From Candidatus Gastranaerophilales bacterium (GTDB taxonomy: Bacteria > Cyanobacteriota > Vampirovibrionia > Gastranaerophilales > Gastranaerophilaceae): a stretch of DNA of 64,000 bases. This document shows, piece after piece, positions 13,698 through 18,101 of the stretch. Positions within the stretch are counted from its first letter, which is position 1, and each line of letters starts with the position of its first letter. The position numbers and the translations under genes were made by a program. Below the pieces are notes generated by a model that ran no database searches, was not told the origin of the DNA, and saw nothing but the letters and a program-made list of their open reading frames with translations. The stretch is taken from the NCBI GenBank assembly GCA_944326525.1, contig CALVEG010000006.1, forward strand, positions 1-64,000. Direction: 5' to 3'.

Positions 13698-14063
13698 CTA
13701 TACAAATGAGGTAAAGCCGCCTCCGCCACCGCAAGAACCAGAGCTTGCCGCGCATCCACCGCCAGCGCTTGCGCCAACGAATCCGCCTGCACAGTCTGTA
13801 CCAATTACCGCAACTGCATTTGCAAAGTTGCTTAAAAATCCAGTGTTAGCTGTGCCTGCTTCGCTTGTTGAATAATTTGAAAAATCTACATTTATTACGT
13901 GTGGTGTGCTGAATACAACAGCATCATATGAATTCATTGCTAAATAACTTTTTTCTGATTTAAGAGCTAAAGATCCTGCTGTTTCTGCAGTTTCAGATTT
14001 TTTAGATGAAATTGTTTGTGTTGAAGTTTGTTGTGAAGTGCGTGCGAAAATGTTGTTTGTCAT
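13698..14063 (-). CDS. small unknown protein with Gly/Ser/Cys-rich tail
   Basis: 121 aa starting MTNNIFARTSQQTSTQTISS. ATG 14063 is chosen because AAAGGAG lies at the right distance; an in-frame upstream start has no ribosome site. Residues 1-40 are Ser/Thr-rich, the centre is neutral, and the last 30 residues are almost only Gly, Ala, Ser and Cys (AGGGCAASSGSCGGGGG) ending FTSFV. No signal peptide and no known family. The tail resembles microcin B17-type precursors in composition, but no YcaO, dehydrogenase or exporter gene is nearby. The promoter region carries the shared regulon box. Confidence 0.65.
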   Translation of the reverse strand: MTNNIFARTSQQTSTQTISSKKSETAETAGSLALKSEKSYLAMNSYDAVVFSTPHVINVDFSNYSTSEAGTANTGFLSNFANAVAVIGTDCAGGFVGASAGGGCAASSGSCGGGGGFTSFV

Positions 14064-16216: not shown

Positions 16217-16453
16217 ATGCCTGATTTATACGTTCTTGAATCCTGTCCATACTGTAGAAAAGTTATAGCTTTTTTAAATGAAAATGCTATTAAATATAAT
16301 GAATTTGATATTTCAGAACCCGAAAATTACGACAATTTGCTAAAACTTGGTGGCAAATCACAGGTTCCTTTTCTTGACGATGAGGAAAATCATATCAAAA
16401 TGTATGAATCTGACGAGATAATAGATTATTTCAGAAATAGCATGAAGGAGTAA
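16217..16453 (+). CDS. glutaredoxin-like protein
   Basis: 78 aa with a thioredoxin fold and the classic active site ESCPYCRK (Cys10, Cys13), a cis-Pro in SQVPFL, and a YESDEIIDYF C-terminal helix. It probably reduces disulfides or glutathione-type mixed disulfides. ATG 16217 fits the AAAGGAG at 16205-16211; the in-frame GTG at 16211 overlaps that ribosome site and is rejected. The next gene starts one base after its stop, so both are made together. Confidence 0.9.
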   Translation: MPDLYVLESCPYCRKVIAFLNENAIKYNEFDISEPENYDNLLKLGGKSQVPFLDDEENHIKMYESDEIIDYFRNSMKE

Positions 16454-16454
16454 T

Positions 16455-18053
16455 ATGTTTTTTAATAAGTATAATACAGGATCTGATTATAATGATTGTG
16501 TAGCAAGAGGAAATTGTGCTTTATCCCCGGAAGTGCGTGCAATTCAAGAAGTTATTCTAATGTTTACTTCTCAGTTAGCTTTTTACGAATTAAAAGCTGA
16601 GAAGCTTAACATGGCCTATTTTGAAAATAAAGAAGTAATTTTAAACGGTGTTATTTCACTTATTTCAACATCAGAATATTCGCATGAACAGCTTCTTGAT
16701 ATAATAAGCAAAATTTATTCTAAACTTTTATACGCTAGGAAAGAATATCAGAATTTTTGCACTTTAAACAGCCTAAGATGCGAAGATTTGAAGTTGTCAT
16801 TAAAGCTTAGCCCTGAAATGACTTTGAATGAGATAATTCGGGCAGGAGAAAAGGTTTTTCTGGATAATTATAAAAAGCTTTCTTTACGGCAAAAAACACT
16901 TAGGGAAATTTTAATTCTTGTAATAAAAAGTATTAGTACAAATCTTTTAAAGCTAAAAGAATTTGATAAATTTGATACTGATATTTTAAAAAATTTGCTT
17001 GAAGGATTGAATATCTTTAATTTTCAGCGAGTAGCATTGCAGAAGTTAGAGCAGAAAATAACCGCGTTATCAAAGAATGATATTGAACTTATTCAGATGC
17101 TTTCTTCTTCAATGATGGAAAAGTTCGGACCTATACAGAAAAAGCTTGTTTCACGCTCGACAAAACCGTCTAAAGCTATTCTTGTTTCTGGTTCAAATTT
17201 GCAAAACCTTTATAATGTATTAAAATGTTCAGCTAATTTTGATATTGATATTTATACACATTCAGATTTGCTAATTGCACATGCGCTTAAAAGATTTGAA
17301 GAATTTCCTAATTTAAAAGGCCAGTATGGAAGTTGTTTTACAAATTGTATACTGGACTTTGCAACTTTCCCGGGGGCAATTTTACTCACTAAAAATACTT
17401 TTCCAAATGTAGATTATCTATATCGAGGTAAACTGTTTTCAGGCGAAGAAATTTCACCTAAAGGCGTGTTTAAGATTGAAAACAATGATTACACATCTCT
17501 TATTGAAGCCTCGCTCAATGCCAAAGGATTTACAAAAGGCAAAGATGTACCTGCAATAACTGTCGGTTATGAAGGTGCGGAACTTGAAGCAAAATTAGAT
17601 GAAATTTCAGAAAAAATCAATGCTTTAGAGATTGAACATCTTATAATCATTGGTCGATCAGATTTTTCAGGTGTGCAAGAAGAATATTTTAAAAAACTGT
17701 TTAAACAACTTAACTCAAAAACTTATGTAATAACTTTTTCTCATTCAAGCGGAAAAGATAACGAGTTGTATATAAATCTTGGTAACAATCTTCCTTTGAT
17801 TGATGATGTGATGAATAAAATATTCAATAAACTTGATATTACTTCAAGCCGTTTATCCTTTATTCTAACAAAGTGTGACCCAAGCTCAATTTCTTATATC
17901 ATAAATCTTCATAATTTGGGAGCCAAAAAGATATTTTTAACTAAGTGCCCCTCTTATGTGATAAACCCAAGTATACAAAGTTCCCTAAAAAACCTTTATG
18001 GAATTCATCAAGCTTATAATCCTGAAGATGATTTAAAAATAATGTATGATTAA
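16455..18053 (+). CDS. degenerate hybrid cluster protein (hydroxylamine reductase) homologue
   Basis: 532 aa, colinear with Hcp: NDCVARGNCALSPEVRAIQE aligns with the Hcp cubane-cluster loop, AILVSGSNLQNLY and YTHSDLLIAH with the GHD/GEM segment, and CILDFATFPGAILLTKNT with EFxxFPGAIxMTTNC. The residues that bind the hybrid cluster are replaced: His to Ser247, Glu to Asp, Cys to Thr in TKNT, no AGCAK or QCND cysteines, and no WYEQK. Only Cys15 and Cys21 of the four cubane cysteines remain. The fold is probably kept but hydroxylamine or NO reduction is unlikely. An AAGGAG precedes the ATG. It is translated with the glutaredoxin, whose partner it may be. Confidence 0.7.
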   Translation: MFFNKYNTGSDYNDCVARGNCALSPEVRAIQEVILMFTSQLAFYELKAEKLNMAYFENKEVILNGVISLISTSEYSHEQLLDIISKIYSKLLYARKEYQNFCTLNSLRCEDLKLSLKLSPEMTLNEIIRAGEKVFLDNYKKLSLRQKTLREILILVIKSISTNLLKLKEFDKFDTDILKNLLEGLNIFNFQRVALQKLEQKITALSKNDIELIQMLSSSMMEKFGPIQKKLVSRSTKPSKAILVSGSNLQNLYNVLKCSANFDIDIYTHSDLLIAHALKRFEEFPNLKGQYGSCFTNCILDFATFPGAILLTKNTFPNVDYLYRGKLFSGEEISPKGVFKIENNDYTSLIEASLNAKGFTKGKDVPAITVGYEGAELEAKLDEISEKINALEIEHLIIIGRSDFSGVQEEYFKKLFKQLNSKTYVITFSHSSGKDNELYINLGNNLPLIDDVMNKIFNKLDITSSRLSFILTKCDPSSISYIINLHNLGAKKIFLTKCPSYVINPSIQSSLKNLYGIHQAYNPEDDLKIMYD

Positions 18054-18071: not shown

Positions 18072-18101
18072 AAAAAATCCCGCCGTAAAGACGGGATTTT
18101 T
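18072..18101. terminator. bidirectional terminator between the Hcp-like gene and rpsG
   Basis: AAAAATCCCG (18073-18082) and CGGGATTTTT (18092-18101) form a perfect 10-bp stem with A and T flanks, serving both converging genes. Confidence 0.88.

Follow-up and report, generated by a model that had tools for sequence, protein, structure and literature searches.

A core Hcp homologue of a Gastranaerophilales family without hybrid-cluster ligands, recurrently paired with a glutaredoxin

The window analyzed here, a 64,000-nucleotide stretch of a Candidatus Gastranaerophilales genome, encodes a homologue of the hybrid cluster protein (Hcp) in which all seven ligands of the hybrid cluster are replaced. 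This protein, hereafter pseudo-Hcp, is a core gene product of its family and is under strong purifying selection. Tentatively, we regard it as a family-wide protein that has lost the hybrid cluster, gained a new cysteine centre (a dithiol relay, or else one re-ligated Fe-S cluster) and acquired a dedicated glutaredoxin. In this branch, an old metalloenzyme thus seems to have been remade into something different. The window is part of contig C6 of an assembly of 1.95 Mb with 98% completeness. The gene forms a pair with that of the glutaredoxin, and the pair stands alone on the + strand:

16217–16453, + strand: glutaredoxin gene, first of the pair (ATG at 16217, stop at 16451–16453; 78 aa, CPYC, YruB/GST_N_3-like)
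16455–18053, + strand: pseudo-Hcp gene (ATG at 16455, stop at 18051–18053; 532 aa; Hcp fold without hybrid-cluster ligands)
18073–18101, reported for the - strand: terminator-like hairpin, separating the pair from the convergent ribosomal protein genes

The single base between the two genes was already part of the initial annotation, and a ribosome-binding-like GGAG for the pseudo-Hcp gene lies inside the 3' end of the glutaredoxin gene. The pair is flanked by a divergent wecB-like epimerase gene on one side and by convergent ribosomal protein genes on the other; for the hairpin, one was found against 0.6 expected by chance. The neighbours other than the glutaredoxin gene (wecB-like epimerase, rpsG, rpsL, and leuD-like) vary across genera, whereas the glutaredoxin often stays. 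These neighbours were rejected as partners, and their presence reflects general locus synteny that is changed in other genera. Elsewhere in the window, positions 13701–14060 (- strand) encode a protein of about 120 aa with a C-terminus rich in Cys and Gly (GTDCAGG...GGGCAASSGSCGGGGG), which is conserved at 12 loci that share this synteny block. It lacks a Pfam match, has only a sub-threshold match to geobacillin-26, and is possibly a peptide precursor.

By sequence and predicted fold, pseudo-Hcp is an Hcp homologue. The full-length alignment with Hcp claimed from the bare sequence is borne out by the NCBIfam profile TIGR01703 (hybrid_clust), which matches residues 1–530 (E 3.1e-53), and by Pfam Prismane (PF03063, Prismane/CODH superfamily), which scores 70.8 bits, above the gathering cut-off of 27 bits. 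A sequence match in the PDB links residues 17–529 to E. coli Hcp (7de4, E 3e-26). AlphaFold2 models with 26 and 85 relatives reached pLDDT values of 87.6 and 89.4, respectively. The structure prediction that the initial annotation had proposed as a check returned the Hcp fold, with a VIA overlay on D. vulgaris Hcp (1e1d) of Z 32.1 over 506 residues at 3.3 A, and the best Foldseek matches were all Hcp. VIA Z values to solved Hcps were 30–32, whereas those to CODHs were far lower; Ni-CO dehydrogenases show a distant fold likeness (Z about 18) and differ in length, domains, and clusters. In both models the N-terminal loop (residues 1–21) has pLDDT below 50, although it is conserved in sequence. 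The length and first domain are of the class I type, and class III Hcps can be aligned to pseudo-Hcp across about 400 residues only. Class I Hcps (D. vulgaris 1e1d/1e2u and M. thermolithotrophicus 8cnr; TIGR01703) share with pseudo-Hcp the fold, domain order, length, Rossmann-like core motifs, Cys15, and Cys21. In contrast to them, pseudo-Hcp has no hybrid ligands, Cys3, or Cys6, and instead has Cys102, Cys474, Cys498, and the pairing with a glutaredoxin.

Pseudo-Hcp falls outside Hcp proper by the equivalog cut-off, the hybrid-cluster ligands, and the cubane motif. Its TIGR01703 score of 181.1 bits is about half of the equivalog cut-off (360.8 bits), whereas canonical Hcps of the same taxonomic family score about 600–750. 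Ligand positions, numbered as in D. vulgaris Hcp, were placed by motif. The comparison with canonical Hcps (from the same order, cyanobacteria, Pelobacter, Terrisporobacter, and E. coli) relied on alignments at 20–30% identity in which the motifs flanking the ligands align clearly, and it left none of the seven hybrid-cluster ligands in the window protein. The replacements of His by Ser, Glu by Asp, and Cys by Thr that had been noticed at the outset are part of a complete series: His244 to Ser, Glu268 to Asp, Cys312 to Thr, Cys406 to Ser, Cys434 to His, Cys459 to Gly, and Glu494 to Asp. Two of these positions were located as follows:

17193–17195, + strand: Ser247, replacing ligand His244 (by alignment)
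17877–17879, + strand: Asp475, replacing ligand Glu494 (Asp in 57 of 85 relatives)

Within the cubane motif, Cys3 and Cys6 are gone and Cys15 and Cys21 are kept, so that two of the four cysteines are left, as first reported. The same pattern holds among 85 relatives, of which 62 keep no hybrid ligand, 17 keep one, five keep two, and one keeps three. Cys3 and Cys6 are absent from all 85, and just one retains the persulphide cysteine Cys406. Canonical hybrid ligands at shifted positions were also considered and rejected after a check of these 85 relatives, which lack a substitute set. On its sequence, pseudo-Hcp presumably cannot perform known Hcp chemistry, and we infer that it does not work as a hydroxylamine or NO reductase of the known kind; it should not carry a hydroxylamine reductase annotation. 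A deep sub-branch of pseudo-Hcps (L109, L111, L113–L119, L121, L030, and L006) is about 40–50 aa shorter, and the region around the former Cys434 is mostly gone.

Beside the two old cubane ligands, pseudo-Hcp has three conserved cysteines that are gains of this branch and that the initial annotation had not mentioned. Conservation of all five refers to the same 85 relatives:

16497–16499, + strand: Cys15, retained former cubane ligand (91%)
16515–16517, + strand: Cys21, retained former cubane ligand (92%)
16758–16760, + strand: Cys102, new, where a helix of domain 1 ends (93%; not the usual residue in canonical Hcp)
17874–17876, + strand: Cys474, new, immediately preceding the site of ligand Glu494 (95%; Tyr in canonical Hcp)
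17946–17948, + strand: Cys498, new, after the next strand (95%; mostly Thr in canonical Hcp)

Cys474 and Cys498 behave as a pair: both are present in 81 relatives, neither in four, and one alone in none. Their joint losses fall at three separate places on the tree, which is too few for significance (paired test, p 0.25). In the predicted model, each of the two follows one of two successive strands (467–471 and 492–496) linked by one helix, and these strands form the sheet edge that bears Glu494 in Hcp; the two cysteines would thus lie near each other in space. Among the 81 relatives with Cys474 and Cys498, 80 have at least two of Cys15, Cys21, and Cys102, and one or two N-terminal cysteines persist in the four proteins without Cys474 and Cys498. 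In the five genomes of clade B, a single, shifted N-terminal cysteine (Cys12) occurs together with 102, 474, and 498, giving four in all. The survey of relatives that had been suggested for Cys15, Cys21, and the glutaredoxin pairing thus found both cysteines widely kept and the pairing recurrent. The statement that the protein has lost its metal ligands holds for the hybrid ligands and may be too strong as a whole, given Cys102, Cys474, and Cys498 beside Cys15 and Cys21.

The glutaredoxin of the window is matched by Pfam GST_N_3 (53.7 bits, cut-off 22) and Glutaredoxin (40.8 bits, cut-off 22.9). Its best NCBIfam match, the YruB-like TIGR02196, scores 39.4 bits, below the cut-off of 88.55. In 11 aligned orthologues the first active-site cysteine is invariant and the second nearly so. 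Because some members have Ser in place of the second cysteine (CPYS), a glutathione-dependent monothiol reaction may be enough. Orthologues occur in 87 of the 146 family genomes, 85 of which also have pseudo-Hcp; in 56 of these 85 the glutaredoxin gene lies directly upstream on the same strand (gap of 4–63 bases, measured to the profile edge), and in the other 29 it is elsewhere. Other genera contribute 9–10 genomes in which the upstream slot is filled by a different glutaredoxin, and the two tested were of the Grx3 type (best match TIGR02181). In total, 65–66 genomes have some glutaredoxin directly upstream of pseudo-Hcp, and several genera have none adjoining it. Chance adjacency was rejected because two different glutaredoxin types fill the slot in different genera. 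Both types share the CPYC motif and the thioredoxin-like family with other glutaredoxins and differ from them in being genetically tied to pseudo-Hcp. The window genome encodes a GCS2-family ligase and a glutathione synthase, so the organism probably makes glutathione.

Hcp genes of classes I and III are usually isolated and have no known partner, and the partner of class II Hcp is Hcr (PMC10210160). The class II Hcp of E. coli, with its reductase Hcr, resembles the pair described here in the Hcp fold and in a redox partner encoded next door. However, the partner here is a 78-aa glutaredoxin rather than an NADH oxidoreductase, and the clusters are absent or rebuilt.

Pseudo-Hcp was found in 141 of the 146 genomes of its Gastranaerophilales family by a search with a branch profile (140 in a separate tabulation). 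Among high-quality family genomes it is present in 125 of 126, one of which (G081) scores low and may have a canonical Hcp only. Between the window protein and its nearest relative, dN is 0.096 and dS 1.8 (saturated); between two close relatives the values are 0.027 and 0.389, with omega about 0.07. A decaying pseudogene is ruled out by this omega and the near-universal presence, and the selection read from the intact frame is thereby upheld. Canonical Hcp, set apart by the TIGR01703 cut-off, occurs in 54 of the 146 genomes. The window genome also has one, a class III Hcp with every ligand present (G000:C2:209430-210941) that was absent from the initial annotation. It shares the superfamily with pseudo-Hcp and differs in its ligands, its shortened N-terminal domain, and its surroundings: at this locus (L001, contig C2, 1178–3423, - strand) the hcp gene lies between genes for an Rrf2-family regulator and a cupin. 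An hcp gene followed by a cupin gene is also found on a Terrisporobacter plasmid.

Elsewhere in the order, Hcps of families f7 (L031, L041, and L042) and f6 (L038 and L040) are degenerate in other ways. L031 keeps all four cubane cysteines; of the hybrid ligands, L038 and L040 retain Cys406 and Cys434 alone. Families f2, f3, and f4 and the rest of the phylum have canonical Hcps among the sequences inspected. Searches of the class and phylum likewise revealed only canonical Hcps outside the order among the sequences inspected; the class search sampled 146 genomes, and a wider spread may exist. The genomes surveyed are largely fragmented draft assemblies of one lineage. In the tree, the degenerate Hcps all fall on the same side of a branch with SH-aLRT 99, which is compatible with a single origin and stepwise loss, although long branches make the placement uncertain. 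Tandem pseudo-Hcps of two or three copies occur in genera g12 and g28 (L037 4620–9485, L085, and G077:C220), and these copies differ in their cysteine set.

The initial annotation had listed redox-sensing, thiol-transfer, and structural roles without choosing among them, and the data favour a cysteine-based one. The most likely role is thiol redox or transfer, with a re-ligated metal site as its close rival. As a putative assignment that we hold as our leading candidate and still short of probable, pseudo-Hcp would be a cysteine-thiol redox or transfer protein that works with glutaredoxin and glutathione. Glutaredoxins of both types reduce disulphides and glutathione adducts. The thiol role is favoured because this chemistry is common to both types and because of the pair behaviour of Cys474 and Cys498. 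These two residues would act as a redox-active dithiol or be the target of a thiol modification (such as glutathione, NO, or persulphide). Cys15 and Cys21 may act as a second thiol pair on the flexible N-terminal loop. The adjoining glutaredoxin would, with glutathione, reduce or deglutathionylate pseudo-Hcp, and metal chemistry would be left to the canonical class III Hcp where present. The support from gene pairing and cysteine conservation is indirect, and speaking against this role are the 29 genomes with the orthologous glutaredoxin gene elsewhere and the genera that have none next to pseudo-Hcp.

In an anaerobic lineage, the conserved cysteines of a former Fe-S protein could just as well bind a metal. 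According to this explanation, which we consider possible and rather doubtful, Cys15 and Cys21 together with Cys102, Cys474, and Cys498 ligate a single Fe-S cluster, or Zn, close to where the cubane used to be, and the hybrid cluster is gone. The glutaredoxin would help to assemble or protect the site, and pseudo-Hcp would carry or transfer single electrons or sense NO or oxygen. Such a site is possible because Cys474 and Cys498 follow strands on the sheet edge bearing Glu494, and it would amount to the shifted ligand positions that the initial annotation had named as its counter-case. It gains its rating from the near-constant presence of four or more cysteines (80 of 81, and four in clade B), two of them original ligands of an Fe-S ancestor. 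The N-terminal loop, conserved in sequence yet without predicted structure, also resembles loops that a cofactor orders. However, the cysteine pairs have been lost separately, as in the four proteins that keep N-terminal cysteines without Cys474 and Cys498. The glutaredoxins, moreover, have CPYC or CPYS rather than CGFS, the type known to carry Fe-S clusters.

Less probable, and in our view unlikely, is a pseudoenzyme scaffold, in which the Hcp fold serves only as a binding platform or regulator (e.g., for the glutaredoxin or for some partner in nitrosative stress) and the cysteines are of little importance. Most of the invariant residues besides the cysteines are indeed glycines and positions of the fold core, and the divergent tandem copies of G024, G042, and G077 resemble a diversification of shape. 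Nevertheless, new cysteines were gained and are held at 93–95%, and a cysteine without a use normally shows poor conservation. A partner or regulatory subunit of canonical Hcp is very unlikely: both proteins occur in the window genome, but canonical Hcp is far patchier than the near-universal pseudo-Hcp, and within the genus of the window, 10 of 12 further carriers showed no second Hcp. This patchy co-occurrence rules out an obligate partnership. A true Hcp that draws cluster ligands from other positions and is still an NO or hydroxylamine reductase is the most improbable explanation, since acidic and cysteine residues do lie near the old site (Asp475 and Cys474) but no relative has more than three of the seven ligands and Cys406 is nearly always lost.

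In the open literature (5.39 million papers), nothing was found on a cluster-less Hcp, a Melainabacteria Hcp, or an Hcp-glutaredoxin pair; subscription papers were outside the search. If the rebuilt cysteine centre is real, pseudo-Hcp would be the first branch of the Hcp superfamily known to work without the hybrid cluster, and the branch offers a natural experiment on how the Hcp fold functions once its cluster is missing. Glutaredoxin may be a redox partner for an Hcp-type protein, and none is known for classes I and III (PMC10210160). These proteins also risk misannotation under a hydroxylamine reductase label while lacking every residue that makes that enzyme. Taken together, pseudo-Hcp represents a core, uncharacterized redox protein of a widespread gut-associated lineage and, if the cysteine centre is real, may take over nitrosative or thiol-stress duties in Gastranaerophilales.
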